The translations under genes and the position numbers were made by a program. The notes under the pieces are model-generated. The model did no database searches and was not told the origin of the DNA. It saw only the letters and a list, made by a program, of their open reading frames with translations. A stretch of DNA of 64,000 bases from NCBI GenBank assembly GCA_013407085.1, contig JACCGJ010004944.1, positions 126,045-190,044 of the forward strand, read 5' to 3'. The stretch is from Atriophallophorus winterbourni (lineage: Eukaryota; Platyhelminthes; Trematoda; Plagiorchiida; Microphallidae). Numbering within the stretch: the stretch's first letter is position 1; every line of letters begins with the position of its first letter. Shown here in pieces: positions 1 to 54,730 of the stretch.

Positions 1-1965
1 CCCTGAGGGACTCCGCTCGTGGCTTCAATTGTTCGAAAAGTTTCACCATCTATTCTGACTTTTACTTTGCGTCCAGACAGGTAACTTGTGAACCATGTTA
101 GTAGGTTTCCGATGACGCCAACATTCTGCAGCTTCTGAAGCAGTAAGGAGTGATTCACTCTGTCGAATGCTTTAGATATATCTAAGTAACCGGCATGGAC
201 GGAACCCCCTTGGTCTAGTGCTTGCGTCCAGTCATTTAGAGTCGTGAGCAAGTTAGACAGGCATGAATATGTTTTCCTAAATCCGTGTTGTGTGAAAGTT
301 ATTAGCTGACGGTTCTCGAGATGTTCAACAAGTCGTTCACACACCAGGCGTTCCAAAATTTTAGAAACCGCTGAAAGAAGCGTCACGGGGCGGTAATTCG
401 CCGGATCAGAACGACTGCCCCCTTTGTAGATTGGTGTGATAACACCGGTTTTCCATTGAGTTGGTACGGTTCCCGTATTCAATGAGTGCCTGAATAGACC
501 ACTTAGTGGGCCACAAAGCTCCAGCTCGCATGACTTCAGAACAGCGGGTGTTATTCCATCCTCTCCTGGTGATTTGCGAACGTTCAGCCGGCGTAGATGC
601 TTTCGCACAACCGTAGGATTTACCTCGATGTTGCTAAGGCATTCGACTTGTAGTGGGTGCGGCAAAGACGTCAGCGTTGACACGTTCTTTGGACAAAATA
701 CTTGCGAATAAAATGATATTAGGGTATCAGCTGTATCCTCGACATTATCAGTCAGTCCGTTCTCTGTCTGGATAGGAAATACACTTGGCTTAACCTTGGT
801 CGCGGTGTTAACGATGGTGTACAGCAACTTAGGATGTCGTTCCATCTGGTCGATCAGCTTCCAATGGTGATATTGCTTGTATTCTCGAATTAGAGACGTC
901 ACCTTGTTACGAAAACTACGAAAGTGTTCCCAAGATGCGTCTGTTCTTATTATTTTGTGTGCAGCCCATGCGGAATTTCGCATCGCTATCCACTTCCGAG
1001 TGCGGCTTCGGAGTTTGAAGCAAAATGTTCTTGATTTCCTTTTGGGAACACAGGTAAAATTGTCGTCTAGTTTTGTACCTATATAACTTAACAGACTAGA
1101 ACAATGAGTATCTGCATTCGTAAGATCGAGATGTTTTTCCTCCGTAATCGTAATGGCACCTCGAAGGCCGAAGTAATCGACTCTCCTGATGAACTTAACG
1201 TCGCCCGACGCCCTTCTGGCGTTGCACACGAATTCGAAGGACAACACAAGATGGTCACTTAGCCCCAAAGGACTATGATACTGCACTGACTCCACTGCTG
1301 TTGCTTCGGAGGTTGAAACCAGATCTAGAATTGATGATTCATTGAGGCCCCTTTGTCGAGTGAATGAATGGACATGGTTTTATAGGGGAGTGAAAGTGAT
1401 AATCTCACGGAATTTGTACTCAAGGGATTGCTGAGTATGCACACTTTTGGTGTAGAGATGTGGGAGGTTAAAATCACCCATTATTAACAATTGGCATCCT
1501 CTAAGATTTCCAGCGTTGCGCATCATTTGTAACAACGTTTCATTGTGGGCATCGGAAGAGTTGGGCGAGCGGTAGATCACACCAAGTATACAGTTCTCTC
1601 CAGTTTCCAAGCGAAGGCTACACCACATGGTGTCCTCTAGCTCAAACCTTGTGTCAGGTACAGCTGTGCATTGAAGACGTTCGTTATAATACAAAGCAAC
1701 TCCACCACCTGATCTTGAACGGTCTCGTCGAAGTAGGATCATGTTGGGAAGTGCCAGCTCGCAATCGTTCACCTGATCGTAAAACCATGTTTCGGTAACA
1801 GCAATGATGTCAGCAGAAAACTGAGCGTTAAAGTGAGACAATTCGGCGATTTTGTTCCGCAAGCACTGTGCATTTGTGTATAGGCATTTAACAGTGGTTT
1901 TCGTGTGTAGCGAGCCTATGCGGATGATGTTTGTATGTCCGACCCCCTGAGAGCCGGACCATGAT
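1..1965 (-). pseudogene. LINE ORF2: endonuclease plus reverse transcriptase (partial)
   Basis: Encodes an APE-type endonuclease followed by a reverse transcriptase; such proteins nick target DNA and copy the element RNA at the nick. Seen in the sequence: TETWF (endonuclease Glu, near 1780), VIYRSPNSS, MGDFNLPHL (near 1470) and LSDHLVLSFE (near 1245). The RT follows with NYRPV (near 400), QHGFRK (near 290), YLDISKAFDRVNH (near 190-150) and GVPQG at the edge (20-1). A TAA at 1380-1382 interrupts the frame just after the endonuclease core; the frame is otherwise open, so the element looks young. The catalytic YADD/FADD box lies beyond the window. The start is uncertain: the frame is open from upstream and overlaps the end of ORF1. 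Confidence 0.88.
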
Positions 1966-19506: not shown

Positions 19507-19877
19507 CTGTTTCCAAGATACGTGCAGCAAAGATTTCTTTCGAAATAAGACTCGCTCAAAAGGCCCATACTCATACGAAAGGTTACTACAGCTACGTTCA
19601 ATCTAAAGGGTTAACACGAAAAGGTGTAGGTACCTTGAGAAGGGACGATAGCTCATCCGTCATTGCAAGCACTGAAAAGGCTCAATTGTTTTCCTCGCAT
19701 TTTCAAGGCGTACAACGCCGAGATTATAACTCGAACGCCTCTGCGCCATAACTTCAATGTGTACTCGCTGATCACCCCCTCTGCACTGACCTTACATTCG
19801 AGGTACACAATGTCGAGACTATATAGGCCAGCCTAGCTTACAACAAGTCGGCTGGGCCCGATAGCATCCATCCACGA

Positions 19878-21302
19878 ATGATCAGACTGCTAGCGCCTAT
19901 ATTAGCTGTGCCGATCACAGAACTTTTCACATCATCCCTCAGTCAGGGTACCCTTCCTTTGGACTGGAGAACAGCCGTTGTAGTGCCTATCCATAGGGGA
20001 GAAGCTTTCTCGACGGTCAAAAATTACCGCCCGGTTAGCCTCACTAGTGTACTATGTAAGGTTATGGAAAGATTGATCAGCGATGATATATGTGGATATC
20101 TAACCAAACACTCTCTTTCGAATGGCGCACAACACGGCTTCCTAAAAGGTAGGTCATGTCTGACAAATTTGTTGAGCTTTCTTAACGAGGTTACTAAGAG
20201 GATGGATGATGGCATAGCTGTAAAAGTCTTCTATCTCGACTTTAGTAAGGCTTTTGATTCAGTCAACCATAGGCTCTTGCTTCTCAAACTCTCAGCCATA
20301 GGAGTATTATGGAACCTTCCGGGCTGTAATCGAGCATTCCTTAGCGACCGTTCCTTTACTGTCAGGATGGATGAAACTTACTCCGCAAGTGCGCATGTAA
20401 CGAGTGGGGTTCCCCAGGGCTCAGTCTTGGGGCCGTTGCTGTTCCTCATCTTCATTGATAATCCAGCCAACCAACTGCGCTCACCTCGTTATATGTTTGC
20501 TGACGACGTTAAAATTGTCGGTAGGTCGGATAACTCCGATCTGATAAGTGACGTGGAAGCTGTAACAGCATGGGCGGGTACGTGGGACCTTCCCCTTAAC
20601 ATAGATAAGAGTCACTTGCTCTCTACACTGGCAGGAAACATGATTGTGTCTACGGCCTCATTTCACACGGAGTTCCGTAGGGTAAAGTCTACAAAGGACC
20701 TTGGAATCGTAGTCTCCGCAAACGTTAAGTGGGTTGAACAATGTGCTGCTGCAGCTCAAAGGGCCAGAAGGGAACTCTTTCGACTACGTTCAGCCCCAAC
20801 TTGCAGAAAAGCTGAGGTGCTATTGCCTCTCTACAAGGCAATAGTAAGGCCACATTTGGAATACTGTATCCAGGCTTGGAAGCCGTATTACCAGGAGGAT
20901 ATCGTGCAGCTAGAAAAGGTACAGAACCTGGCCACTCGCATGATCGAGGGGTTAGCATACACCAATTATGAAAATCGTCTATTAACACTAAGACTTTGCT
21001 CACTTAGGAGGAGGCAACTTAAGGGGGATCTTATAGAGACCTTTAAGGTTGTCAAAGAATTAAGTTGTCTCGAATTCGATGACTTCTTTCGGTTCTCTTC
21101 TTTGGTTGCTACACGAGGGCACAGTCTCAAGCTACGTAAACAGCACACCAGGCTCGAATCCAGAACGCACTTCTTTAGCATCCGTATAGTGAACGCGTGG
21201 AACTCACTTCCCGCAGAACAAATCATGGCAACGTCCGTAATTGCGTTCAAACATGGGCTGGACGAACGGTGGAATGTGCTTTTTCCCGGAGCATTACCCT
21301 AA
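19878..21302 (+). CDS. intact CR1-type reverse transcriptase ORF
   Basis: 474 codons without a stop. Domains in order: palm/fingers with NYRPVSLTSVLCKVMERL (about residue 50), QHGFLKGRSCLTNLLSFLNE (about 95), FYLDFSKAFDSVNHRLLLL (about 122, first catalytic Asp), SGVPQGSVLGPLLFLIFIDN (about 174) and MFADDVKIV (about 209, catalytic Asp pair), then the thumb and C-terminus (RPHLEYCIQAWKPYYQED, CSLRRRQLKGDLIETFK, RIVNAWNSLPAEQI). The frame extends upstream with an in-frame TAG at 19824-19826, so the ATG at 19878 is not the ancestral start. The RT could be enzymatically competent, but the element around it is broken. Confidence 0.9.
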   Translation: MIRLLAPILAVPITELFTSSLSQGTLPLDWRTAVVVPIHRGEAFSTVKNYRPVSLTSVLCKVMERLISDDICGYLTKHSLSNGAQHGFLKGRSCLTNLLSFLNEVTKRMDDGIAVKVFYLDFSKAFDSVNHRLLLLKLSAIGVLWNLPGCNRAFLSDRSFTVRMDETYSASAHVTSGVPQGSVLGPLLFLIFIDNPANQLRSPRYMFADDVKIVGRSDNSDLISDVEAVTAWAGTWDLPLNIDKSHLLSTLAGNMIVSTASFHTEFRRVKSTKDLGIVVSANVKWVEQCAAAAQRARRELFRLRSAPTCRKAEVLLPLYKAIVRPHLEYCIQAWKPYYQEDIVQLEKVQNLATRMIEGLAYTNYENRLLTLRLCSLRRRQLKGDLIETFKVVKELSCLEFDDFFRFSSLVATRGHSLKLRKQHTRLESRTHFFSIRIVNAWNSLPAEQIMATSVIAFKHGLDERWNVLFPGALP

Positions 21303-22708: not shown

Positions 22709-25700
22709 ATGGCATGCTTCATTGACAAAAGTAAGTTATTTTTTATTTTGGCGTATTTTTTGTCGTCATATTTATACTCATATCTTCTTTTCCAGAAGAT
22801 CCAGTTTCTACCTTGGAGGATATTTGTGTACGTTTTGTTAGCAAACATCTCCATGTGCTCTCATTCATCGATGTATCAAATGGCGAACCAAAACGCAGAT
22901 GGAGGTTCCCGTATAGCAGTTTCAGAATTCCTGCAAGGCCAGCGCAAAAGATCTTGCTGCAACTTTGCAAAAGGTGTACGTTGGATGATGAAAAAATGAT
23001 GTTGTTTTCCTCGGAATATGTTGAACTTATTTCTCCTGTTATTAAAGAATCCAGCGTCAGTGCTTCTTCTCTTCGAGTACTCAAAGACTTTCATTTAACC
23101 AATCTTTCTGCGATGAATTTGGTCAACGTCAATTTGAATGCTCTTGTTGGCTGTCTTGGAGAATGGACTGTTCGTAACTTAGTCAGCTTAAACGTTACCG
23201 GTACATCCATTCTCTGTGAAACTCATCTACCTATTTTGGTTGCTTTGGGTCGATTCAAACACTTACAAGTCCTGAACGTCAGTCGAACTGAATTCACTAC
23301 ATCTAGTCTTCAAATTGTGACGGAATATCTACCCAATTTGGAATATTTGAACATATCACGCACTCGCGTGACTGATATCCACCCTTTACTGGCAATGAAA
23401 GACCGCCTATCTGGATTGGTCATGCACCGTTTAGAACTTGAAGACAGGGAAGAAATCGAGAAATTATTGTCCGTTATTATTCAACTGCGAATGCTCCGAA
23501 TTTTGGACGTTTCTGAGAAGCCATGCCCGATGTGGACCAGACTAGATCTGATCGATAAGTTATGTTCGGAGACAACTTTGCCGCGTCTAACTCATATTGA
23601 TTTATCTGGGAATCAATTTGGAATGCAGTTGGAAGATGTGAGGTTTGTGTGTTGTTTTATAATACTTTTCAGGGCTCTAATTGAAAACCATCCTAACCTG
23701 ACATTTGCTGGATTCGCTTCCTGGTTATCCAGCCCCGAACCGGAATTAGAAGGGATCGCCAAATTAGCTACCAAGTATCCGAAAATTACCGTAAGTACTT
23801 TTGCTACGAACGATTATTTCTCGTTTTTCAAATCAATTTACGTGCAAAGTTACTAACCAGCCAAGTAAATAAATTCACACTGCACTCACATTTTCCAAAC
23901 TGTTTGAAGGAACGTAGACAAATGAACATAATGGATTAGTGGTGGTTTCAAAATCTACCTTCCGTTAAATTTTCCATAAAGCAATTTCACTTTGTCACGC
24001 CAATAATTTAAATGGGCCTGGCCCTCAATAATATTTTTAAGACGGCATTTTGTTCGTTTTCTTCTCGACACATTTTAAGCATCTGTTAGAAGAATTAACA
24101 GCATGCTATGAAACTTAAGAAAGTATGCGGACGACAGCTTGCAGGCCGAAAAGTACCACTCAGTAAGAGGTTTTAACCTTACGTACTATCGGCTAACTTA
24201 GATTTATATGAGCAAGATTTCATCAAAGCTTCGTAAGCTTCAATATCTTCAGTATACCACAGAAAATAAATAAGCCCATCATAATATAACAGTAGTCGTT
24301 CAACACATCGCATTTCTGGATTGCTAAGAAAGTTGATTCTCAGCAGATCATCACAGCTCGTTGCTCACCTCTAGAAATTGATTATAGGAATATATGTAAA
24401 TATTATAAGGTGCGTATATACAAGTAAAATAATCTGTGGCATATCGTAAATGGCTTTATCGTAGGCCATTGGTCAATTTTTTGAATTATGTTTTAGCTTC
24501 AAATTGTTTAGGACATAAACAAGTTGCGTTTGTAAGCCACTGTTTGGCACAAGCGACCTGTTCAGTCACATGTGCCCATACACATTTAGATGGGGTTAAA
24601 CCTATAACCATGAACAAAAATCCGTATTTGTATGCATTTCTACCACACATACACAACGACCGGTTTCGTGCTGTTTGCATTCATCAGGTAGGGATAGTAT
24701 GATCAGGATGCGCATGCGCCTGAAACAACGAAAGAATGGTAAACACGTGCTTGTAAGCCATTGTTTGATGAGGTTGGCACGACCGACCTCGTGAATGAAC
24801 AGGCTGGTCGTGCCAACCTTATCCAACAGTGATATGTATCTATGCACAAGCCTGGCCCAGGCAAAGTGCTGCATAGTCAGACACTGCACGTGGGCTAAGA
24901 TGCTGTCAGGTTGCACAGGCCTAGATAAATATGAAATGTAAATAGAAAAATAGAACAGCGGTAACACAATAGACTTAAATTGTGGATATATTTTGTGGGG
25001 TTTTCAAACACCTGTTTCTAAATTGTCTTTGACACAGTAAAAGCCTATTTCCAACTGTAATTAACACGCAAGCAAACTCCATCATACAATTGTACTAAGC
25101 CATTGAATAACCACCCCAACCATTTCCTTCAGGCTGTAACATACTGTTGGGATGATGTCTCAGTTTTAATAATGTAATACTAATCGCAAGTGTGCAAATA
25201 AATGTGTTTTTGGACACGAATGTTTTTGATTTCAACACCTATCGACGATTTAAAACGTAACGAAGCAACATCATCAATTCAGGAGATGTGAGAACGCAAC
25301 ACTTGCCTCGCACACACTGAGATTGTATCTGCAACACCGCCACCCGTAAAATACAGGTGTTGCTAAACAAGGATGTTGATTAGTTGTTGATCGAAATCAT
25401 AACTGTCCTGTTTGTCTGTGGCGCTGCGTCTCCTCTCACATTTTTGGTGTATGACTGCATTTTATCAATGCCCGTGTTTTTGTTGTATTGTCAAGTATCT
25501 GATATCCGAAAAGAGCTATCGAATTAAAACGTAGCGAAGTGAACTCCTGAATTATCCATGCCAGGCTGAACTATGAACCTAAAACTACTCTGGAGCTAGT
25601 GTGCTTTAAAACCGACTTGATACATGATGCTACTCTGCGTCGTCGAATGATGCGAAGATGTCGGGATTTCAAGTTTTCTTGAATAATACTATGCATCTAC

Positions 25701-28700
25701 GATTGCTTCAAGTTTATAGCAATATCATGTTAACAAAATAGAATCTTTTCAGCCTTTGCTACGGACAGTTGTGTTATCTGGTTCACTCGCTCAAAAGAAT
25801 GAGAACATTTGATATTCACCACATGTTATTCAATGTGGTAGACCAGCCTTGGACTATCAATTTTATTTTCGGGTTGTGTAGGCGAGTTAATCATAAGTGT
25901 AACTGTAAACCAATTAATCCATTCCCATTTTTGAAAGTTCCTTCGTCAAGTTTCTTTAGACACTATCTTTTATTTCCTCATCTTTCGGTATATTTGCTCA
26001 GATGCTTGGTGACCGCGGAGATCAGCTTCTGTTGAACACTTTAACTCGCTACAAAGATCGCGCGATCTATCTACAAAATGCACTCCATAATATATTCGGA
26101 GCAACTAGCAATCGGGAAGCACCGAAACCCGATCTTTTACACGTGAGTTTACTATCGTTTTGTTCTAAGAATGGTTGAGCTCGCTTTTGATTTATCACTT
26201 TCTACCCATTTACCATTCTTTGCTCCTCAAGCCTTAGTTCTTAACTTTCAAAACTGTTTAGATTCATAATCAATTAGTCAACCATTGTGTCGTTCACCAC
26301 AAAAAATAAGTTCAGTGGATCTGATCAACACAACGAGATAACAATCTACTGCAATCTCGCATCCACCGGTTTACGTGATTCGATACGTCAAGGACGCTGG
26401 CTAATCCATCGTTGGGCGCAACCGCACGTGGTCAAATGTAAAGTTTTGAGCGAAAGCAACATATCTGGACGAAAATCCAAGCATTATGTTTTATTTGATA
26501 ACAAACAGTTGTCTGAATTGTCTACCTTTGTCCTACCGGACTCAAGTTATCAAACAATCTTTGCACTCTTGGGTTATTATCTGAAGATCGACCCTTGTTC
26601 TTGTTTTTGTCCTAAACTAAATTTCCTGATCACATGAAGATTAAATTTACCTATTCACATATTTCACCAACCTTTCATCAAAATAAGGATGTCGTGTTTT
26701 CTACGTTATTGAGGCTCGTTTTTGCTCTCGTTATAAGAGACCCCCGTTTTATGTGTTAGTGGATGCATGAACATATAAGCAAAATTATGTAATGCCAACT
26801 ATCATTTTTGCGAAAACGAGCTAGTGCTATTCATTATCTACCGTTTGATCCTAGACAATGATTTTCACGTTCCCCAAAGTTTCACAATTGGCTATTCCGC
26901 AGGATTGCAAATTTTTAATTTAAGTGTTCCTTCTCACAAATGTACTCTATTCCCAGTGGAACGAGCTCAATCCATTTAAATCAAATTGGCTTCAAGTCAG
27001 TCACCCCTTTTCACTTGTTTCATTCAAGTGATTGCAGTTTCATTGGGCAAGGAAAGGTCACAAATGGCTATATAGATCTTGGAATCGATGTGTAGCGCTT
27101 TTAAAGAAGAAGAAAATGGTTTTATTCGTGTAGACGAAATTCCAGCCACCAAATTAATTTCACGAAAAATTAAGGGAAATGACGAAAAACCATTTACAGC
27201 TGGTTTCAAATTTTCACTCCCGTATTTAAATCGGAAACAACATTTGATTGATTAACCAGGTATTATTGAATAAGGAACGAAACATTGGATTCGAGTAGAG
27301 GAGAATGGACTGCTGGCAATAAGAGTCTTGTGCAACGTTTGTGCACCATCGGATGAAATGACTTTGATCAGTCTCGCTTTTATTGAATGGACGACCGATG
27401 ATCTTATTATTTATGTAGAATGTTGCATTAAATTTGTACTTCATACCGGAGTCGCACGTGTATGACAACGTCCGTTGCCGTTGCTGTTCTGTACTGCTGT
27501 TGTGTATGCTCATGGAAGTTCATTTACTCGTTTTGTAAGTCATTATACTTTTATACTAAATCATTGCTTTTAATCAGTTGATTTGTGATAATTATACGTT
27601 GATTCAATTTCAATAGATTCCTATGCCGCTTATCCTGATTATTTGGACTGTGTTAACTCGTTTGTTATTTTTAAACCATACCAGGAATCACGTCCACTTG
27701 CCTCTACTACGATGGTTTTAGCTCACTTCTTCATTCGAAATCATGTTGCAACAGATTTCCCTCGGTGATCAGGATTATTTGAACCATTTGTAACTATGTG
27801 TTCTCACTTTTCTCACTTAATCTAATAGCTTTTCCTTTTTCAGGCTGTGTTACGCGTCATGCGCTTACACATGCGCCGTATGGAGATGATTTTAGCCGGA
27901 ACTGCTGTGATATACAATCTGACACGGAGCGAACAAAATTGCCAACTACCTATCGAGCTGCTTAATCGTGCAATTCGAATGACGTTAACAGCTATGGAGA
28001 AATTCCCGACCAATCATCAGCTGCAGAAAAATTGTTTTCTAACACTGTGTAGCGATACTGTACTTTATCGTGCGGTATGTATTTTGATCGCTATTTCTTC
28101 GTGTTTTTTTAACTTGCGTATTTCCGATGCTAGTGTTATGTGTTACCTATTAATGCAGTTTCCTTAAATTTTTCAATGAATTTCTGCCCTATATATTATG
28201 AATGCTAGCATTCGCACTTCACAATTCACACGAGAATTGAAGAGAAGTTCATCAAGAAACGTCCACATTATGAAAGGGCGTATCGGGCATTAATCAAGCA
28301 TTCAGCATAAGCTGAACATGTGTTGAAACACTGGTCACAGTGTGGACTTTGTATAAGAGCACAAGCCTGATCCAGGCAAAGTGCCGCACAAAGACTGCAC
28401 GTGGGCTTAGATACTGTCAGGTTACCCAGGCCTAGACAGATATGAGGATGACTTTGACAGGGTAGATGTACTGCGGCGTACTATTAAGCCCTATTTTTGC
28501 ATGTGGAGGCAGTTGATATCTCTAAGCCTGGAACACTACCGGTTGAAAAGATAGACCGGGTTGCAAAAACTGAATTCACCAACCTATCAACGGGGTTATC
28601 GGGCTCCGAACTGGAAATTCCCAGAAAAGGGCGTATGAAACGCTTCGTCGGTCACCGGCCACCGATAGTTGCGAACCTCTCTCGCTCCACTGCCTTGTGG

Positions 28701-31700: not shown

Positions 31701-34700
31701 TGCGTTTTCCCTATGCCATTTTTCTCTCGACGCTGAATCTTTCATAGTTCTTGGTGGAGAATAATCTAATCTTTTATTATTGTTGACTACTTTACAGATC
31801 CCTACATCAAGCCTGTCTGAACTAGCCAAAGACCGTCGTCGTATACGCTGTCTTCTATTGTATGTGGCAGAAAAATGTTTGCTTGCTTCTGATGTTCTCG
31901 AAATGGGTCCAGAGCTCCCGGCATATCTAGCTCGTGTACGGTTGCGTGGCGAAGGGGCCCCGGTATTCGATACGACACTTCGATTCACCCTCTCTGCCTT
32001 GTGGAACTTGACGGATGAATGTCCCGAAGCGTGCGTTGGCTTCGTTGAAGAGGGAGGATTAAAGATTTACGAAAAGCTACTGAAGGTAAGCTTTTTTCTA
32101 TGCCAAATCAAGCACCTATGATCGTTCAATATCAACCACTTCGCTGTATACTAAATCATTGGTGTTCATCATCTTCAGTGGCAGAATTACGCCTTTAGCA
32201 TGTACCGAATGTTCAACTGCCATAAAACGATAGATAAAATAAAATTCTAAAAGATGGTTAAGCATGGGACTTAAACACCTACGGATTGTATAGGATAGTA
32301 AGCACAAACAAATTGGGATGAGGAGCTTGCACCTCAAATGTAACATGCATAGTGTTTGTAGTGTTTCTAACTTGCCCTCACTGTGTTTGAAGGTCTACAG
32401 ACGTCTTGTTTGTGACCTAATTTATGTTCGCGACTACAACACTGATTGTGACATGCTCAGCTTGCGTAAGTTTCGTTATTGTTTATTTCCCGTCATGGTT
32501 AACGTATTGCAACCTAATTGTCAGTTCTTTTTCATGGCACCTTGACACTAGCTTATTAGTTTTCGAGAATCCGTTCTATTTTTTATGCTAGAGTCGTGTA
32601 GTCTTCTGTCTTATTATCAATCATGTAATAAATCCTATGGTAACTCGCGTTACGAAGTAAAGCTGTGAGTCGTAATCGTTTTGAGCATTTGGTCAGTTGG
32701 AGGCGTCTATATTACCACCTCGTTACGTATGTTAGCACAAGCTGAACATAAGTAAAGTACACAGCATTAGATTTCACAGTTATTGTCCGAAACATAGCAT
32801 TCCGTCTGTACTATTAGTTCATGATGAAAATGTTAATAGCCGACTTTTCCTCGTCTTGTGGATGGCCCGGGAATCGAAATGATTGCAAAAGAACCTGGGC
32901 TGTCTGAAACGCTCTAAATATTGTAATTGAAAACATATTTATTATGCCGAAATGCTTCACCCCCTCTTTTCTTGTCATAGAAACTCCCAGCGAGTTCTTC
33001 CGAAATTATTTCTTCAAATCATGGTTTATTCGTGCGAGATTATGTATGATATGTTTCTATCTTATTTTATAAAAAGATCCCAAACTTTTGTGCAGTGAAA
33101 CTACAAAAATCAAGCCGCTTTTATAGGCGCTTGCTCTTCTGATTTTCCTGCTGGTTGTTGTTTGATACTTTATCGGGCTCCATACCTCTGATCTATGATG
33201 ATGATGATGATGATGAATTTAACGAGGATCTATTTCTGATTCTGTGATTATTTTTCTCTAAAATGGTGAAGTTACATCCCCATCTACTTCACCATTATAA
33301 GCAGTTCAACAAATAATAAAAAGCCTATTTCAAACCAGTGCTCGGTCTTGTGGCCAGGCCTTTATTATCATTTTATCATTCCTGGCCATTTATTCAAACG
33401 TTTACGCCAGCACATTGATTCTCGATTGTGCAACACTACCGGCGTAAAAACGTTTGGCTTTAACTGCGTTAGTGCCCTCGGTGTAAGCTGCAACGGCGAA
33501 CTTTTTACAATCACGGTACTCAAGTGCTATGAGGTGTGAAACAACAAAATATTTGTCAATGCTATTACCTTTTTTCTCGTTCCCTTATACAACTTGGAAG
33601 CGGAGTCTATCAATCATTTTTGAATTTTACTTCACTCCAAGGTTGTACTTTTATTTACAGTTTCGTTGATGGTCAAGTGATCCTAGTTAACGTGTCTAAA
33701 AGTAGGTTGACTACTAGTGTTGGAATCAAGAAAAAGTCGTTTACTATTAGGAGGGTATTCTTGCATTCACTACTTGCAAATCGACGTGATATTGAAATGG
33801 AATATTCGCGCGACTTATTCGAAGACTATTTGAAGCAAACGTTGCTTTGTTACTCAGCCACTTGATGTATCCATACATCGCTGCTTTTAGAAAGCATTGT
33901 ACACACTGGGTGGTAGCCTTAAGCATGCCATTCAAAAGTTGGTGATTGTTTATTATGACACGGCAATAGAGGTCATCATCCTGCTACCCTGTTTTTCTAT
34001 AGTTGGGCTACGTTTTGTAACTTTGTATTTCGAAGTTGATAAGAGCTTGAAGTCAGTGTGTATGTATAGTGTATGAAACCAGAAGCCTGGATCCATACAA
34101 AGTGCAGCACAGCCATAGACTGTGCGTGGGCTAAGATACTCTCGGGTTTCACAGGCCTAGGAACACTGGCGGTGAGAATTCAACGTGTTTCTGCGTACAA
34201 TTTAGTACCTTTAGAAAATCAATTTAGCTTGAAACCAGAACGAATATGTGCCATCAAGGAGCCTAATTTTAGTTATAAAAGACCGCATGAGCGCGCTTCG
34301 CTAGCTGAGATGCATAGTGTCTGAAGTATATATAAGTCCGCGGTAGATTGTCACAATCAGTTACCTAACGCAACTATCCATAACTGAATCTTTGGTAGTG
34401 ATGTACATATCGCGAAACAAGCTAACGTGCATTGTCTTCGCTTTCTATGTCACGTATTGTGGATGGGAAATCATCGTTTTCGTAACGCTGCTTTGTTTAG
34501 CATTCCTAACTTGTAATGGCTTCGTGGTAATGGTGCCTAAACTGTTACTTGACTCAAGCAAATGAACGCTTTTACTGCGAACGACCAGTTTCTCCAGTTT
34601 GCTTCCAATAGATCAGAATTTACAATGGCTATTTACTATCAATGATATGGCTCAAAATTGTGTTCTTTACTGGTCTTGTTTTAATAATCTTGTTACAGTC

Positions 34701-37550: not shown

Positions 37551-40500
37551 ATCATTTAAAAATGAAAAAGTGCCACCCAGCAATGCACGAGAAAAAGAAA
37601 GAAAAAGGTGCAATATGAGGGGGGATTTTTTGTCCATTGTTCCACATGTCGATTTCTTGGGTTTTTTTGATATTTTTCACAAATTTGATTTATGGCGTGG
37701 ATGCAATTATTCTCTCCCGTGCCAAAGATCCAATGTCGAGCGTGTTACACTATTCTGTGGTTGAGAAACCTGATCGTTTTCTCTGCGGAATTGCTGGCAT
37801 TCTATGCCAGCATCGGCTTACTGATATAGAAGTCTGTCTTTAGGTGTAAGCTTCAAAGATCCACTAATAAAGAAATGCGGTTGTTTGTTCGTTAACGATG
37901 GATTGGACACGCTCTAAGAAAGTTTGCTCATCGTTAACCGTACTTGTGCTGGGCTGCAGAGCCTAGTAGCTTCTAAACGACCTTGCGACCAGTCAGAAAT
38001 AAACCAACGCCTTTCTTTAGATGTTTTTAATCAATAACTTGATTTTGAACGGTGAGCTTCTGTGTGGTTGCTGAACTCCATTTGAACATCTGATCAGCGA
38101 TGCCATCACCCATACATTGGATCTCCGAAGTGTGTAATGCGGAAAATTTAAACTCAAACCTTCCTGGTATTCTGTATATTAATAAACAATTGCACCTAAT
38201 GGAATGGTCACATTAATTGTAAGCTGTCATGAAGTTCAACAACGAGAATTGACATGCGAAGCTCGTAACCTCGCTCCCTTTGCTAGCAAATTAAGATTTG
38301 TTCTGTAACCCCCTGACCGGTAATCATTTTCATTCAATCGCACACTGCAATCTTGCTGTCATTATCACTTCCATTTACATTTGCAAGTTCTGACAAGCTG
38401 ACAGTCTCTCTGTATTCTAGGAGTTTAACTTTACCCTTCGAAATCAATTTGTACATACCACCTATCTCATTCGTCGCTGGATGCTGCGTACATTCTATGT
38501 TTGCTGAATTGTCTGTGTGCGTTTTGACTACAGTCCTCAGCTGGATTTTACTGAATTGGAGCCTCCTTTTGCAATCTTATTTCCGCTTTCCATTCCAATT
38601 GTCTACTATAGTGGCTAGTTACGCTTAAAGATGTCTGAAAACTGTATTCACTGGCGGTCTTGCTGTAAAGATCTTGGCGTGTTTGCTTAATCCTATATGT
38701 TGACGGGAAAGCAAGTCGTGATACTTGTCAGTGAAAGACGAAGGGGGCTATCATGTCGTTCTAATCGTTCTCGAAACCCGATTGGTTCATTTCAGGTGTA
38801 GGTAACCCATCCCATAGTTCCGTCCTTTCACATCTAGGATTTTATTGTGTTATGGTTGTATGACAGTTAAGCATTAAGTACTTGCTACTGGTTTAATGTT
38901 CTCCCTATTTGTAATGATTATAAATTGTCCACTGTTTCATTGACCACAATCCAGCTTACTTGCTACACATACCATGTGATTTGTAACCCAGTAACCAAAC
39001 GTATTCAATACATCCATTCGTTGTCGGCACTGATTGACACTTAGGCGAGTTTATGTATCAAAATTTCATGATTCCCACCATTATGTCTAATAATGCCACG
39101 ATGATGACTTTAAAGTATATATCGTCCAGTTGTTTCTCTTTATAACTTGGCTTGCATACTGCCCAACCATGTTATTTACTGTTTAATGAACGGCTGCGAT
39201 CGTTAAGTTTATTCTGTTTCACCCAATCCACTTTTCTTTCTACGTTGTAGAACAATGTCGCTGAAATCGATTGCACGCGTAAGAGCCTATTGATCCAAAC
39301 TCTCATGGACTTTTTCTTGTGAGTATCATTTTTTTCCACGTCTGAGCTTTTCTTCTTTTCCTCGCCGTTATATATATATATATATATATTCTATTTTTGT
39401 TCTCATCTTTCTAGGCCTGAGCATCCTGACAATATGTTGACCCACGTGCAGTCTATGATTGTTTGTCACTTTGCCTGGATCAGGCTTGTGCTTTCTTACC
39501 TATGATTGTCCGGCACTCTTCCTTGATCCGGCTTGCGATTTCATTCATACATATGTAAATTGAGATAGATATATAAATAACCAGATAGATAGATAGATAC
39601 GATAGATAGATAGATATATAGATAGATAGATATGTATGTATGAGAGCACAAGCCTGATCCAGGCAAAGTGCCGCACAGTCAGAGACTGCACGTGGGCTAA
39701 GATACCGTCAGGTTGCCCAGGCCTAGACAGATACGAGGAAGAAAAAAGAAAAGGAAATAGTAGTGAGACTCCAGCCTGTTTCAGTATGCAGTTCACTATC
39801 TCTGGCCAATCAATTTAGCACGGTGTTAGCCGCACAGCACAAAGTACTGCACGATTGCACATCCGTGCGATAGATAGATAGATAGAGTGCTAATTACAGT
39901 CTGTTTGCTCATTCTGTCACCGCTTTTACCCATTTCTTTCCCTCTTTAGCAAAACGCTACGGCACCCCAGCATTCAGATCAGCTATTTTGCTGCTGGTAT
40001 CGTTGCCCATTTATCTTGTCTCCCTAACGAAGTCTGGCTGGATGCTTTACAAACTTCCAAAGAGAGTTTTGTGAAAGCTTTGGTAAGCCGTTCATTTGTT
40101 TGTTATTTTACTAATCCCGATTCGAGAAGCCACTGACTTCGTGTATTTTTTGGTTTCTGTTGTCTATGCAGGAAATTTAAGACAACAATAGTGGTAGTGC
40201 GTTGTTCGAAGTGGGATTATAGCGTTGATTATCAGCGGAAAACGTATCAAACAATAAAATTTGTTGAATATTAAGCTCTTTCATCATCATCACAGACAGC
40301 ATTACATCGGTAGCGCGTACCGAATGCTTAACTGCCATACAACCATGAAAACGTAAAATCCTAAAAGATGGGGAAGGGTGGGACTTAAATAACTACGGAT
40401 TTGATAGAAGAGTAAACACAAACAAACTGGGATGAGGTGCCTACACCTCGAATGGAACATGCATTCAAACAAGTTTGGTGAGCGAGTAGAGCGACATCAG

Positions 40501-42627: not shown

Positions 42628-42685
42628 AACCACAATCCGAAATCGTTTTTTGCGCTACCGCGATTAACCTTGCTGTGACGGGCAG
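42628..42685 (+). repeat. second copy of a ~55-bp segment (first at 42185-42240)
   Basis: CCGAAATCGTTTTTTGCGCTACCGCG... CTTGCTGTGACGGGCAG repeats CCGAAATCGTTTTTGTGCTGCCGCG... CCTGCTGTGACGGCAG, 440 bp apart, in direct orientation. The second copy runs straight into a SINE fragment. Confidence 0.8.
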
Positions 42686-42765
42686 TGCCGCACAGTCAGA
42701 GGCTGGACGTGGGCTAAGATACTGTCAGGTTGCCCAGGCCTACACAGATATGAGGAAGAACGTGT
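42686..42765 (-). mobile_element. SINE-like repeat, copy 6 (internal piece)
   Basis: Plus-strand text TGCCGCACAGTCAGAGGCTGG... CAGGCCTACACAGATATGAGGAAG. Unlike the others it lacks the 3' end and tail, so it did not arise by simple 5' truncation. Confidence 0.8.
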
Positions 42766-45484: not shown

Positions 45485-45686
45485 GTACCATGTGAGTATA
45501 CCTAAATTTAGTATATTATTCAGTTGCCCAAATATATTAGCCATGTTTACGTAGCGTTAATATATATATATATATATATACCACTGTACCATGTGAGTAT
45601 ACCTAAATTTAGTATATTATTCAGTTGCCCAAATATATTAGCCATGTTTACGTAGCGTTAATATATATATATATATATATACCACT
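45485..45686. repeat. perfect 101-bp tandem duplication
   Basis: 45485-45585 and 45586-45686 read identically, including a (TA)10 run at the same place in each. It is either very recent or an assembly artefact. Confidence 0.92.
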
Positions 45687-45873
45687 GTACCCTTTTTTTG
45701 TTTTCTTGCTGTTCTGCTATGTCACCAAGCTTACGTATCGACTAACTGAGCAATATGAAACGTTGATTTCTCCATCATGACCGCTAGTGCATTTTTATCA
45801 ATCTTGTTTAGTAAGCTATGCATTACTTGAACAAGTTTTATCTTTTCCTGAAACTATTTTTTCATCATTCAGC

Positions 45874-48800
45874 ATGTCTAGCGCTTCCAAAGGCCGTCGG
45901 ATTCCCGACACAGCTGAACTACTCAAAGTAAACTTTATTCCCTCTCGCATACGTTGCTTCAGATCGTCGAGACACATCCCGCATTCGCCACAGAAATTGA
46001 TCCTTCCAGTGATGACCCTTCCGTTGCAGCTTTACAAGCTCTGAAGTATGAATCTGAAAATCCGAACGGTACATCTTCGTCATACGATCTAATACCTGCT
46101 TACAGAAAATGCTTCCAGCTACAAAGAAGAAGGAAATTATTTTTATGCTCGTAAAGAGTTTTCTAAAGCGATCAATTCGTACACTGCTGGTCTGAATGCA
46201 AAACCTACTGACCCCAAACTGATTGCGTTCTTGTTGACAAATCGTGCCATCAGTCATTGGTATTTGCGTAAGTTTTCATTCTCTGCATTCAATTCACCTG
46301 ATCGGAATATACAGGAAATTATGGTTCCTGTCTGCGTGATTGCAAACAAGCTTTGACTTCACACAGCGGCCATCTAAAAGCATATTTAAAAGGTAACTTT
46401 TGCTATCAGATCGCTGTCAATTCTCACAGCCGTCGATGCTTGCCTTGCATTAAACAAAGTGGACGATTGTCTCGAACTCTGTGAGAAGGGACTGTCCCAC
46501 TTCCCGGAGTGTGAACGTTTGCTGGATGCACAACTCAAAGCTTTACGATTGCAAGCCAACTTGGACAAAGAGCTTGCTAAACGTGTAAATGAACGTGAGA
46601 AAGAAACAGACAAGAATGAGGCAACGTATAAAATTCTTCGCGTGAGTTTGAGACTTAGGTTAGTCCGCACATGGACGCTAAATTTCAATTTGCAAATGAG
46701 GATTTATCCTCTAATAATTGGGTTTGGCACAAAGTCAGATCGGCTTTCGAATGTCAGGTCACGGCTGCGCATACCTGATGAGCAGGAACAACCGCGTAAC
46801 CGGTCGTATGCATCCGTTCTGCTTTTCGAACGTCATATATTACTTATTAATAAAATCTGGCTACAAACAAATGTTAACCTTAACCCCATTAGTACTTTTA
46901 TGCATATACATCGATGTGCACACATACCGTATTATGCGAATCGACCACTTATCCTGGCCCTGCTTTCGTGACGTAATACCCATTAGGCTTACTAAAGGCT
47001 GTTTTGTAGCAAGGTAGAATCAGAGGTGGTAGGTTGACTGCTACATAGTCACGTTCCCTGTAGTGACTGTCACGCGTGGTTTGACGAAGCTATGTGAGAA
47101 GTGAAACGTTACCCAAAACTGCTCTAACCGAATGCACACAAATTTCTTTCCACTATGAATACACGATCGGTTTCAAACATATTCCAATAACTTGACGTTC
47201 AGTTATTGCGTTGAAATTTTCGGCTGTTCGTCGGTGCAGTCAGAAATATGACTATCCACATATTAATATTATAATCATACTAGCCATATTATGTTATCAA
47301 TAATTTTCACGTGTGATATGGATTCTACGAAAACATGCACATTCTCTCATTGCACTTCTGATGAAACCAAGCCGTGTTTAATTTACCTTTTCAGGAACGC
47401 GGCGTATGTATCGATTTGCAACTACCTCCAATCGATGTACCTTCAGCGGCTAACAAGCAATTCTACGTTGATGTTTCTAATCGGCTGCATTGGTCCGTCC
47501 TTTTTATGTATCCTGAATTCGGTCAAACTGATTTTCTACGTGACGTGGTGGAAACCACAAAGTGAGTGAATATCTGCGTTGGCTTACTTGGTCAACCTAT
47601 TCGTGTCACAAATGTTGTACTTTATTGCCGATATCAGTCCACTGTTCTTAAAACTATCCTGGACATTTTCTAAGTAAAAAGTAATTAAGTAAGTAAGTAA
47701 GTAATTTCATCTGCCGGATTTGCAGTTCATCTTCGTCTGCATGAGTGCATATATGTCCGAAGAAATTCGAGACGTTCAGTTTAAAAGTCACGCGTTCGTC
47801 TATGGTGCGCAAAGGGTGTCCTATCTTTGAATGGGCTGAAAATCCACCTCGCAGCTAATGCTCTGTAGGTCGCTGTAATGTTCTAAGTTAGCACAGTTCT
47901 CAACATGTAAGTGATCTATCGTTGTTATTAGTATTATCATGCGCTTGCAATGTTTATCTTTGATGGACATCGACCGAAGTAGATTGACAACAACAACAGT
48001 AGTGCGTAACATATCAGAATAATCCGCAGGAAAAATTAGAGTTGTTCAGGCGGTTCACTTTCAGTTAATATTTTTATATCTCTTGCAAAAAAGCATGTCT
48101 GAAATCATGAGCGCTGCCTTTGGAAAAGACCTTTTGCGTATGAGAAAAGAAGGCTGTTAGCACGGAGTCGTCTACCTTGAAGATGGGGCAATCAAAGCAC
48201 ACTGATGATACTCATTTTAGTGTATAAACCAGAGTTTTGAGTATTTTTCGGTTTGAGTACAAAATTTAAAATCGATCAGCAGGTGCCTACGTGTGCTTCT
48301 CAAAAGCGTTTAATACTTGCGTACTCACAGTGCAGGGCCCTAGTTAACTCACTACCACCTCGTTTTTTGCCCAGACATTGTCGCAATTTCGTTTTCCTCC
48401 TCGATTGTAACTTATACTTATAAAACACTTTTGCAAGTGTCGTTTAATCGCCGCGAATTCTGTGGTGAGTCGCTCCCCTTGGTTGGCTGACAGTAATTTT
48501 TCATGTCATTATTTATGGGCTGCCTGATTTTCAGCTAAGGTACTAGATTATGCATTTTTGTCCCCAAACTCTTCGTTTTGCTGTCGAATACTATTTCCGG
48601 AGTTCTAATCATAAAGCTTATGTTGCCTGCTTTTCGCGTAATTGCTGATTTCAGCACCCGACGCGTGTTTTAATTTGGACAGAAATTTTATGCTGTCGCG
48701 TGCTGAAATCAATTACTTTTCATGAAAACAACCAAGTAGAGCACGCATATTGTGGTTGCCTATTTCCTAAAATGTTTGCTGTATTTGCGGGAGTTATGTT

Positions 48801-51800
48801 TAAGAAACCGTTTTGTGTTACATGCATACGATTCTTGGACATTGCAATATCAGTTCACAAACCGCATTCATTCACCTACTTACAACATTTTTTCTTGTGT
48901 CCAGTTCATCCGAGCCCAGACGCAGTTCTGAAAACGCGATTTCAAGTTAGATAGCATGGCTTCTTTCGCTATGCATTAATTAGCTTCTCATCATTCAAAA
49001 AACATTTAAACCGTGCGATCAAAATATTACTGTCTACTGCGGTTCACAATGTGAAATGGTCTCGGTAACGATCAGATCTACATGCCCGACGAAATATATT
49101 GAAAAACTATTTACCTAACCATCCAATCAGCTGATTGGCATCCGTCAGTATATCGATTTTGAACGATCAGCTGGACTATTTTAAACGTCCCGTGTTACAG
49201 GACGAATTTCACGTGACACTAGTTGGAGGTTACTATTTGTGAGCTATGTGCACATGGTATAATTTACGTAATGAACCAGAATTCATCGATTTTGTTTTTC
49301 AGTAAATATTGAATAATGTAATCGGTTTTGTTTTGTTGCTAAGCCTAACGAATATATTCACGCATGTGAACTTAAGTACGGAGATTGCGTACAATTTTGA
49401 CTGGCGTCTGTGGTTAATAGTAAGAGTAATCTTTGAATTTAAATTGGAACAGGATTGATTGATGATTAAATGTTGACGAAATTAAAAAAAGTCCATCCGA
49501 TATACTCGAATAGTTTCGAAACTCTGGCGTCTTGTACTTGTAAATCGGTCTTTCTGACTGCTGTTTAAATCACGTTAAGGCTTATCAACGTATATGCTTG
49601 TGGCTCTTATGTTGTATTATATCATATACTTGATTACTAGTAGAAACGAATGTGTGATATGCTGACGAATGTTAGCAAAAATGTTTAAACAATGATTCGC
49701 AGAACGATCTCGTGCAAAGAACAGCAAGCTAATAAAGTGAACGGGTTCAGATTTTTGGAAAGTCAAACAGTTGCGAAAAAGGAAATATTTGGAAATCAAA
49801 CTTGCTGGTGTTATACGTTAGGTGATCAAGCACCCTAGAATGTTGTAGAAAATATTGTTAACGGTTTCACCATAGCGTCGTTTTATGTCAGTCTTATCTA
49901 AACGAAATAGTCGAATTGGACCTCTAGCGAGGCTGATGATTTTAACATAGAAGAATTGGTTATAACCAGTTTATTAGGATGATCAAAACTTCTTCTGAGA
50001 TTGACTGGGGGAGACTCTTTTTTTACAATTTTTAACAGTATCGACGCAGAAGTGTTTTTTTAATGTCTTAAATTTAAGGTGTGTAGTAAACTGATATATT
50101 ACAAAAGTATACACCTCTTTCGGTAACGCATTATCCAGAAAAGCAGCATTTATTCGGTTTATTTACAATAAGGTAACAACTGCCTGAATAGTTATAAACT
50201 GAATTATATAATAAAAAAAAACAATAGGAACTTATCGAAAAGGTTATGGGTCACCATTCGATTTACTGCTCAGACAACATTTAGTGACTGACGCTATGTT
50301 TTCCAGCCCATTTCTCAGTCTGAAAATACTATTCAATCTATCCGCACAAGAATTTATTGGTAATTCAATTGAATAATTATATCCGCTTGTTGTGTTTCCA
50401 ATCATCTGGAGCGAATCGGGTACATGATCTGGTGTTTCCTTTGAGGCTGCCTTAATTCCTCTTTTATATTTTGTGAAAAATTAATACTAGCTCAATATCA
50501 GTAACATTTTGGTTGAAAATTAAATCATCACCTGAGTTTAGTGCATTTAATCTCCAACACAAGATTCTACGAAGTATAAAATTACAATACGTCCATATAG
50601 AAATGCGCAAGGCCTAGCTATGTTAAGCCAAAGATTTCTCTCCTGACAATCTCTTTGCATCCGTCTTATGCTCGAACTTCACTTCCAGATAAAAAATATT
50701 CAATCTGCACGGATGTGCAATCGTGCAGTACTTAGTGCTGTGCGGCTAACATCGTGCTAAATTGATTGACCAGAGGCAGTGAGCTGCATGCTGAAACAGG
50801 CTGGAGTCTCGCTACTATTTCCTGTTCTTCTTCATCTTCCTCATATCTGTCTAGGCTTGGGCAACCTGACAGTATCTTCGCCCACGTGCAGTCTCTGACT
50901 GTGCGACACAGCCTGGATCAGGATTGTGCTCTCATACCATACCATACCTGCACAGAGGTAAAGTCAACGTCTTAAAAGAAACGAGTTGCGTTAAAACTTT
51001 TGAAAATGTTCTAGATATATAGAGATTCATATTTAATAGCATATTTTTATTGGACACAAAAGGTAAAAGTAAGTCACGACTAAAAACGTTACTTTACAAT
51101 GGCTTGTCTTGAAATCAAGAAATTGGATGAATATCGTCATCCTATTATAACGAAACGAGGTCAAAAAGCGTTACTGATTTTACAGTTCATTACGTTGTGC
51201 GTTGACATACGATCCAACGTTAACCACACTTATTCCCAAACCTCACCACGCAAAACAACGCTATTTTTCAAATTGTTATTACGAAACTAACCAATGAAAC
51301 GCGTTCATCTTTTCTCGGTGAATCTCTTTTGCCGCGGAGAAATTTTTGTGTTTCCGCGCCGATTTTAACTTCGAGCTGATTTGTCAGACCCTCGCCGTTA
51401 TACTTGCTCTGCAGGTTATCGGAGAGCTCTTGATTTGTATGCTTCCCTTGAGCATTTTGTCAATATTCGTATGAGGTTATCAGCTGGCCATGATAAATTT
51501 GTTTACTTCGGTTTCATCTTTGAACCATCTAGTATTGTGCTAATTTCTACATTAGATCTGAGCATATGTATGGTATGGTATGAAAGCACAAGCCTAACCC
51601 AGGCAAAGTGCCGCACAGCGAGAGACTGCATGTAGGCTAAGATACCGTCAGGTTGCCCAGGCCTAGACAGATATAAAAGAAATAGAAAAGAAATGGTAGT
51701 GAGACTCCAGCGTGTTTCAACATGCAGCTCAATACCGGTGGCCAATCAATTTAGCACGATGTTAGCCGCACAGCACATAAATGCTGTACGATTGAACATC

Positions 51801-52833: not shown

Positions 52834-54310
52834 AAATATCGTTGTAAATTTTGCCTGTAAAGTGACTTTTGTTACCGGATTAATCGTTCTTGGTTGTTTT
52901 ACCTGTTTGAATTTGGGTTATATTATTTGTCCATGCGTCTGTTTTTCAGGGGACGTCGCAGAAAGAGTCGGTTCATAACCGTTGACCAAAGTAATAGTAC
53001 CAGTAATGCACTTCAAATTTAGAGTCCAAATCCGTTCGCTCCCGCTGCTTTTAGTAGGTTGTTCCATGCAGTCGAGGCTCATCAGAACCCCTTCATTTCC
53101 AAAAATGTCTGTTAGCATACCAGTGTCCGGTAATCGCCTCTTGCAGGGTAGCCAAGTCGACCTTCAGCCTTTTTGGCTCATTGTTGATCACATCGGATTT
53201 TCTCACGCCTCTGATATTCGAGACGTCGTCATGAAATCCTGGAAGCATGGACCGGACATTCCAGGTTCCCAGTTTCAGAACTGACCTATGTTGTTTAGTA
53301 ATTCGTTTCGCTGGTGCGGAAAAATACAGTCTGCTTGTCGGTTGATTCCTAAACCCCAAGCACCCAATGAGGATAGCAGACCGTAGTTAAAAACATCCAG
53401 ATCAAGAGGTTTCCCCACCTCATAAGTACAAGCAGGAACAAACCGCTGGTGGGGTGATGCATCTGCGTATATTTTAATAACTTTAATTCAGGATCGTACT
53501 TTTAGAGTTGATGTGTTTATGAAGCAGCTGAAGTGTTGGCACGTGTTAGAATATACCGGCAGCTGCCTACCTATTTGAAACCCGTTTGGAGTTGGGAACG
53601 GCTCTGAAGTGGATAACTTCACCGCACGAACGACTCTATCGCCTACACCATGTTGACCGACTTACACCAAGAAAGGTTTAGTATGCCCTTACATAAGGAT
53701 AGTAAAGCGATGTGGATAAAAGCAACCGAAATATATTTGAAAAAAAACGATTCGAATAGGAAATTTTCTAAAAAATGATATGTGTGGGCGATGAGATATG
53801 AAAGATAAAGCAGCTGTAAAAACAACAATGAGATAAGACAAACAAATGAAGATAAATCAGAATTGAAAACGTCACAGCATCCGTGAAATGTTATAACCGC
53901 GAATCCGAACTAGAGCATAAGCTCTGCATTGTTCCTTTCACGTCGTGGCTGAAATGTAATAAGAAGTATAGAAGGCTGGCAAACGTGTTTTATGTATACT
54001 ATTGTAACAACTAACTACATCAGACGATAGATAAAATATCATTTCGCGCGAAATGTAATGCAATTACGAAAAACATCTCTTCAATTGTGAAGTAATGCCT
54101 GAACGATTGCGTTAAATATTTAGGTTCATACAATCGTGACAGACATTCCGTGGGGCGTTGATGATCACTAGAAGGTTTCAAAGGTTGGGCGTGAAAAGCG
54201 TCATATACATGAAAGACACAAAGAAGCAGTCGTCGTGGCCCAGTACTTCTTAAATATGAACACATTTGAATGATATAAATATAAAGTGATGTGTTGCTCA
54301 CATCCCCCGA
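52834..54310. other. intergenic region between TTC4 and the FERM gene
   Basis: Contains a LINE endonuclease fragment (53460-52918). The rest is AT-rich with no recognisable coding exon. A terminal exon of the FERM gene may lie near 54250-54200 but could not be proved. Confidence 0.45.
52918..53460 (-). pseudogene. RTE-like LINE 5' end: endonuclease N-terminus
   Basis: Minus strand: a 5'UTR-like stretch (53460-53360), then VLKLGTWNVRSMLPGFHDD, RKSDVINNEPKRLKVDLATLQE, and in another frame DTGMLTDIFGN and SERIWTLNLKCITGTITLVNGYEPTLSA. These are the first ~130 residues of an endonuclease of a third LINE group (LKLGTWNVR type). It is cut at both sides and frameshifted. Confidence 0.82.
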
Positions 54311-54317
54311 AATTACA

Positions 54318-54359
54318 CTTCACTGCCAGTTTCTGGCTGTCTGCCGTCATCAGGTGGAG
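54318..54359 (-). ncRNA. hammerhead-ribozyme-like motif 3
   Basis: Minus strand: CTCCAC (54359-54354), CTGATGA (54353-54347), stem II CGGC-AGACA-GCCA (54346-54334; GGC pairs with GCC), GAAA (54333-54330), CTGG (54329-54326), CA (54325-54324, where UC/UA is expected), GTGAAG (54323-54318). The stem I arms pair at five of six positions. A relative with a ruined core lies at 55735-55810. Confidence 0.65.
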
Positions 54360-54730
54360 GCATTAAGATTAGGTTCAGTGAGCCTTGATATAAATGTACA
54401 TTTGAACGAGGTTTTGGCATTTCGACGCATCACACTCGCGCTTTTCTGAACTGCGGTGCTTCATAGCACCGCGTCTATCCGCAAATTATTTTGTCATGGC
54501 TATGAACGAGTACTTATTCTGTCTCAATCTCAACATTCTGTGATATGATTAGAATTTTGTAGGTTTGTACGACAGATAAACGCGTTGTACGCATCAGTGT
54601 GTGCTAGCAATGTAATACTGACCTTGATGATAATGATGTTGTTATTGTAGGCATAACGGGAATGCTACGAATAGAAGAATACTAACAAACAAATCGATTA
54701 CCCCGAAATAACATAGTTGCATGAACTCAC

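Follow-up and report, generated by a model that had tools for sequence, protein, structure and literature searches.

In all likelihood, the hammerhead-like motif in an intron of the TTC4 gene is a decayed type I hammerhead ribozyme, sitting in an old, 5′-truncated non-LTR retrozyme (i.e., a short non-coding retroelement) that would have arrived there by the cycle proposed at the end of this text. Judged by its DNA features, the family to which this copy belongs is best filed among the metazoan non-LTR retrozymes, a known kind of element. It is one of at least four hammerhead families found, as tandem arrays and as dispersed copies, in the 537 Mb assembly of the source animal.

Within the window (the whole stretch of 64,000 nucleotides analysed), positions 46769-46811 (+) read GCATAC-CTGATGA-GCAG-GAACAA-CCGC-GTA-A-CCGG-T-C-GTATGC, and direct reading recovers there every hammerhead element listed in the initial annotation. 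The two stem I arms are exact complements, and stem I is prolonged beyond an internal loop by ACGG pairing with CCGT; helix III consists of an A-U pair closing the CCGG, and the triplet is GTC, with cleavage presumably falling after C46805 (Table 1). The copy departs from a type I core at a single place, GTAA, whose T we take to be hammerhead position 13 (A13 changed to U). This change, together with the mismatch in stem II, predicts that the copy should be inactive, and the TTC4 transcript should therefore stay uncut by it. That this is a dead copy, as had been proposed, is indeed most likely. Of 52 distinct relatives selected by BLAST similarity, 51 carry GAAA. When copies are folded singly, the full hammerhead is not the minimum-energy structure in any of the four tried; for the window copy the minimum is -22.4 against -5.5 for the core hammerhead (a figure that leaves out the outer stem I). 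As to its type, the earlier assignment to the minimal hammerheads of Penelope-like elements (PLEs) and retrozymes holds for the second half only: a retrozyme fits, whilst the extended stem I with an internal loop, the one-pair helix III and the palindromic tetraloop suit a minimal Penelope hammerhead poorly; a type I ribozyme whose loop is a CCGG palindrome is the better match.

Table 1. Coordinates of the TTC4 intron, the retrozyme copies and the parts of the intronic hammerhead (window positions).
Feature	Position	Strand	Basis
TTC4 intron, GTGAGT ... TTTTCAG	46642..47394	+	exon frames, Cns1 6hft match, named TTC4 relatives
5′-truncated single copy of the ~307 bp 'GCGG' retrozyme unit	46649..46871	+	BLAST to L002 unit, 84%; unit positions 70-303
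Stem I outer 5′ arm, ACGG	46761..46764	+	sequence; pairs across internal loop
Stem I 5′ arm, GCATAC	46769..46774	+	sequence, family covariation
Catalytic core, CTGATGA	46775..46781	+	sequence, family alignment
Stem-loop II, GCAG-GAACAA-CCGC	46782..46795	+	sequence; four positions, third pair an A.C mismatch
GTAA where GAAA is expected (position 13 changed)	46796..46799	+	sequence
Palindromic CCGG loop of helix III	46800..46803	+	sequence, family covariation
U16.1 and C17	46804..46805	+	sequence and homology to hammerheads
Stem I 3′ arm, GTATGC	46806..46811	+	sequence, family covariation
Stem I outer 3′ arm, CCGT	46814..46817	+	sequence, consensus fold
Second hammerhead copy (~233 bp family), with intact CTGATGA..GAAA core and damaged stems	24637..24709	-	R1
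~233 bp family retrozyme sequence around the second copy, 77%	24516..24789	-	unit alignment
Inverted piece beside the second copy	24796-24831	+	unit alignment
Possible third, very diverged hammerhead copy	54301..54375	-	R1, 13.8 bits, E 0.18

Of the 207 residues encoded by the exons flanking the intron, 3-206 align with yeast Cns1 (6hft); two other TPR proteins score higher, their best stretches covering the TPR part only. In Pfam, the TPR repeats exceed the cut-off, and the wheel domain of Cns1/TTC4 is a weak match that stays below it (E 0.066). The closest named TTC4 is that of Paragonimus westermani (66%), and TTC4 proteins of other flukes match as well (17 proteins in all), which identifies the host gene as TTC4 and marks the genome as trematode-like. 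Together with the exon frames and the relatives elsewhere in the genome, these homologues bear out the original placement of the hammerhead, within a repeat and inside a TTC4 intron. The retrozyme copy starts 7 nt into the intron, in sense orientation, and has at least 123 matches in the genome, itself included (the best 40 of 1,364 first-look candidates were scored); among the matches listed, the closest other copies of near-full length are 88% identical to it, and two partial ones 90%. By sequence similarity, it is an old member of a large repeat set. No target duplication is visible around it, the flanks sharing 3 bp only.

Further repeats surround this copy. The next one in the same intron (46939-47188, +) also occurs in L001 (two copies), in L004 and in G000:C10830 (where L071 and L101 are one place). 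Its copies elsewhere, of the form TTGGT-CTGACGA-A-GCTTCTG..AAG-(T/C)-GAAA-CGTT-ACC, resemble a minimal hammerhead whose palindrome is ACGU, except that the core is followed by an additional A; the copy in the window reads TTGACGA, the L004 copy sits in a long inverted repeat, and Rfam lists no hammerhead for this repeat in L001 or L004. Upstream of the TTC4 exons, positions 45485-45691 are a perfect 101 bp tandem duplication (TRF 100% match, 2.0 copies), which is either a recent event or an effect of assembly. Another, dispersed repeat recurs at 24865-24941, 28376-28452, 34101-34177, 39667-39743, 42684-42760 and 51607-51683, and inverted at 39394-39502 and 50835-50913; its copy at 39667 contains GACTGCACGTGGGCTAAGATAC, and those at 39394-39502 and 39635-39743 face each other.

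A further, diverged hammerhead copy and possibly yet another are annotated in the window, both on the minus strand. The one at 24709-24637 scores 26.7 bits (E 5.5e-5) with R1, a covariance model built from the family alignment described below without this copy, and 22.8 bits with Rfam Hammerhead_1, below its cut-off of 34; it has at least 67 genome matches, itself included. The possible third, at 54375-54301, resembles the L034 motif by eye.

The abundance of these sequences in the genome is high. The pattern CTGATGAGN12CGNAAC has 4,296 matches against 3 for its reverse, and the pattern of the ~233 bp family 4,181 against none; their loops differ by one base, so the two are mutually exclusive at any site and sum to 8,477 exact matches. 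Tandem arrays of the window copy's family, whose unit measures 307-309 bp, lie with a period of about 306 bp in C4805, C4214, C3943 and C1429, and tandem units of the 257 bp and ~233 bp families in C117 and C129, respectively; units of 232-309 bp were viewed whole. The window copy's family thus includes tandem repeats within 150-450 bp carrying a type I hammerhead, the window copy itself being single and truncated.

The stems support a hammerhead identity for the families. In an alignment (A1) of 69 of the 89 distinct rows, window copy included, 93.1% of the cells of helices I-III are paired, against 76.3% after shuffling, and the covariation is 0.406, against 0.153 when shuffled and 0.016-0.082 when slid. 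Of the 20 rows outside A1, some contain indels or are near-duplicates, one is the second window copy and others have broken pairs (e.g., a changed CCGG in a row of L009 and a broken stem I in one of L061); the choice of rows mattered little, since a wider set of 84 of the 89 still has 956 of 1,043 cells paired (91.7%). Because the pattern used to gather most rows dictates the core and the initial pair of stem II, only the remaining stem pairs count as evidence. Stems I and II vary on both sides between families (e.g., C-G and G-C; G-C and U-A), which is also where much of the covariation falls. In A1, double changes occur in 8 pairs, against 6.6 in the shuffles (26 of 500 as high), and there are 16 pair types, against 15.2 (196 of 500 as high); both counts barely exceed the shuffles, because the independent events are few. 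The general architecture is that of type I, i.e., three helices open at helix I, with covariation, where helix III proper amounts to one or two pairs and the palindrome. In the consensus fold of A1, three pairs (columns 12-14 with 64-66) make up the outer part of stem I, in a register slightly shifted from the ACGG/CCGT of the window copy; RNAalifold on A1 does not choose the hammerhead helix III and adds non-hammerhead pairs.

The core is retained too. In the similarity-selected set of 52 distinct copies, chosen independently of the core and with more than one unit taken from some arrays, CTGANGA, GAA and ACCGGTH are all retained in 46; position 17 carries U in 36 copies and C in the other 16. 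Conservation of the core is modestly above that of the rest of the unit (0.988 versus 0.959; 4 of 119 shifted positions are as high). The initial annotation had proposed to look among genome-wide copies for covarying stems and for a consensus with CTGANGA and GAAA; the relatives do carry CTGATGA and GAAA, their stems covary, and its reading withstood this check. A family with active members is plausible given these intact cores. Rfam HH9 reaches 45.2 bits in L002, of the GCGG family to which the window copy belongs (cut-off 52), and Hammerhead_1 34.9 bits in L118, of the ~233 bp family, above its cut-off of 34. The 73.5 bits that R1 gives to the window copy are circular, as this copy is part of the model.

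For the 307 bp family, 43 loci were aligned to the unit in 53 blocks; a few of these are cut by the end of a sequence stretch, and the minus-strand block of L112 is a cross-match to the other, ~233 bp family. The 3′ ends fall at unit 301-309 in 27 blocks and at 142-149 in 15 (42 of 53 together), both A-rich places, whilst the starts are spread across the unit. For the ~233 bp family (44 loci, 51 ends and 55 starts), 26 ends lie at unit 31-44 and six at 149-153, again A/T-rich; eight others (unit 7-11) and three (unit 229) are probably alignment breaks. Its starts concentrate at unit 157-175 (19 of 55) and at 92 (six). In 11 of the 44 loci (within L123-L162) the insert is only 105-126 bp long around the hammerhead and extends from unit 145-171 to unit 33-44; we offer no explanation for this favoured 5′ end.

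Words of at least 8 bp were looked for up to about 20 nt from each junction, whether or not they abut it. In the 307 bp family, 12 of 29 inserts share such a word between their two junctions, against a mean of 0.17 when junctions are re-paired, and in the ~233 bp family 11 of 23 do, against 0.33; no more than two arose in any of 500 re-pairings in each family. The 29 are what is left of the 43 loci after excluding seven with inverted pieces, three arrays or mixed loci (L016, L104, L112) and four with a near-identical partner (L021, L060, L106, L110), and since L017 and L058 have a common upstream flank, 12 of 29 becomes 11 of 28 when counted as independent. The 23, out of 44, exclude ten inverted loci, three arrays and eight with broken alignments or junctions out of view. 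Target duplications longer than 4 bp, as in known retrozymes, are thus present in both families. Neighbouring pieces on opposite strands, no more than 75 bp apart, are present at 7 of the 43 loci of the first family and 10 of the 44 of the second, the second window copy being among the latter. Taken together, the duplicated targets, the clustering of 3′ ends and the inverted pieces suggest that the elements spread by reverse transcription. On the other hand, a 5′ end exactly at the cleavage site was seen in only one of 53 blocks (L014) and one of 55 starts (L143); insert 5′ ends do not coincide with the cleavage site, so cutting by the ribozyme left no clear mark on the boundaries. Inserts continue across that site (unit 236/237), therefore the template would have been uncut or already circularised.

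Mere chance resemblance in unrelated intron sequence could be suspected from the Rfam scores. At E up to 10, Rfam lists six sites over the 64 kb, the motif not among them, and no family reaches its gathering score in the window; even with 1.6 kb searched, HH9 (RF02275) gives the motif 21.9 bits (E 0.018). The probability of such coincidence is nevertheless negligible, as had been argued at the outset: a descriptor allowing one core mismatch finds nothing in the window except 46769-46811 and has one match in total in 60 dinucleotide-shuffled windows, both strands counted, and over 223 bp the copy shares homology with a repeat of high copy number whose cores are intact. The DNA similarity shared with relatives over those 223 bp settles the identity of the motif, and a chance match was rejected on these two grounds. 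A working ribozyme adopted by TTC4 to regulate its splicing, as proposed for intronic hammerheads of amniotes, has in its favor the sense orientation, the position so close to the intron start and the full complementarity of the stem I arms. We regard it as very improbable and set it aside, for the core is broken at position 13, a stem II pair is lost as well, and the copy has diverged by at least about 12% from the near-full-length copies among the matches listed, as would a neutral old insert.

Less improbable, yet still unlikely, is that the motif is the terminal hammerhead of a PLE, i.e., a fragment of an autonomous element instead of a non-autonomous retrozyme. PLEs do bear hammerheads (PMC6155905), and the genome holds at least 17 remnants of GIY-YIG coding sequence (the best 150 of 1,370 candidates were scored). 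However, head-to-tail units of 232-309 bp leave no room for the coding region of a PLE, Rfam shows no hammerhead in the two of these 17 places searched (L121 and L122), and PLE hammerheads are usually minimal, lacking helix III and tertiary contacts (PMC6155905), unlike those of this family. In L121 the GIY-YIG frames lie near reverse transcriptase frames of Gypsy-type appearance, in two opposite copies, as in nested or composite elements. The L121 frame itself we take to be PLE-like by its GIY-YIG motif. On the evidence here, with 2 of the 17 GIY-YIG places examined, the family is not one of PLE minimal hammerheads. A somewhat stronger competitor, although we consider it rather unlikely too, is that the element is a hammerhead-bearing SINE of tRNA origin, comparable to schistosome Sm-alpha, and that its tandem arrays are secondary satellites. 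SINEs of the Sm-alpha type carry tRNA-like A and B boxes. In the mostly dispersed family with stem II GCTC/GAGC, a B box (at least 9 of 11 places) lies upstream in 27 of 33 copies, against 3 of 33 in controls with one shuffle per copy, and an A box (at least 10 of 12) in 15 against 7, somewhat above control; in the 257 bp family a B box (9 of 11) is present in 17 of 20 copies against none of 20. The window copy's own GCGG family speaks against it, its B box being weak (at least 9 of 11 in 3 of 35 copies, against 1 of 35) and its A box not above control (score 10 in 1 of 35, against 6 of 35). The GCGG family thus shows no clear pair of the boxes that mark Sm-alpha, and the B box is seen in other families.

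The retrozyme reading, in turn, agrees with what has been described in other animals. Metazoan non-LTR retrozymes carry type I hammerheads in tandem repeats of 150-450 bp, of low GC and in thousands of copies, with several families per genome, coexist with PLEs, and have target duplications which, when present, exceed 4 bp (PMC7229834); platyhelminths are named among their hosts (Cervera and de la Pena 2020, PMC7229834). The DNA features listed in that source match those of the families here; the clustered 3′ ends and frequent inverted pieces are an addition, insert boundaries not being analysed in the sections of PMC7229834 consulted. The satellite hammerheads of newt and axolotl (HHR_Amex1) resemble the window family in their single-pair helix III and palindromic tetraloop (PMC7229834), and differ from it in host, stems and unit; hammerheads built in this way are reported to cleave better as dimers (PMC6155905). 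With the minimal hammerheads of PLEs (PMC6155905, PMC7229834) the family shares a weak helix III, but it has an extended helix I with an internal loop, and no link to GIY-YIG coding in the two loci examined. Closer in host are the SINE-like hammerhead elements Sm-alpha and Sj-alpha of schistosomes (PMC6155905, PMC8490949). Likened by description, these are non-autonomous trematode elements with a type I hammerhead, and one family here has an upstream B box as they do, whereas the window family is without a clear one. They were reportedly described by Ferbeyre in 1998 and by Laha in 2000. Among the open-licence papers listed, titles and abstract openings hold no report of a hammerhead in flukes other than schistosomes, which does not prove its absence.

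The cycle that we propose for these retrozymes would start with transcription of tandem copies, whose hammerheads may cut the transcript into units. A host ligase could then circularise the units, as suggested by animal retrozymes (PMC7229834), and the reverse transcriptase of an autonomous element would copy the RNA at a nicked target, starting, if the insert ends are a guide, from a small number of A/T-rich sites in the unit. Such insertion would duplicate about 8-15 bp of the target, truncate or invert the 5′ end and, at times, bring in more than one unit. This way, the TTC4 copy would have been inserted and would have later lost position 13 and the stem II pair. We infer the circle and the enzyme; the boundary features are observed. 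As to the machinery, we tentatively suggest that a LINE-like or PLE enzyme carries out target-primed and twin-primed reverse transcription of RNA that is either circular or multimeric and uncut, with internal sites of the circle as starts, because two families show 3′ ends confined largely to a few A/T-rich sites, 5′ truncation, duplications of about 8-15 bp, frequent inversions and read-through of the cleavage site. PLEs are considered a strong candidate source of the enzyme and LINEs are also named, the matter being left open in PMC7229834. Here, the window has LINE-like open frames with RVT_1 reverse transcriptase domains at 6-1379 (-) and 19827-21299 (+), and since both these and GIY-YIG remnants exist, either a LINE or a PLE could be the source.

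In its own right, the copy in the TTC4 intron is of little functional interest. The boundaries of its relatives, however, bear on the question of which machinery mobilises animal retrozymes, and this trematode genome adds at least four hammerhead families, with insertions sufficient to study how ribozyme RNA may return into DNA.
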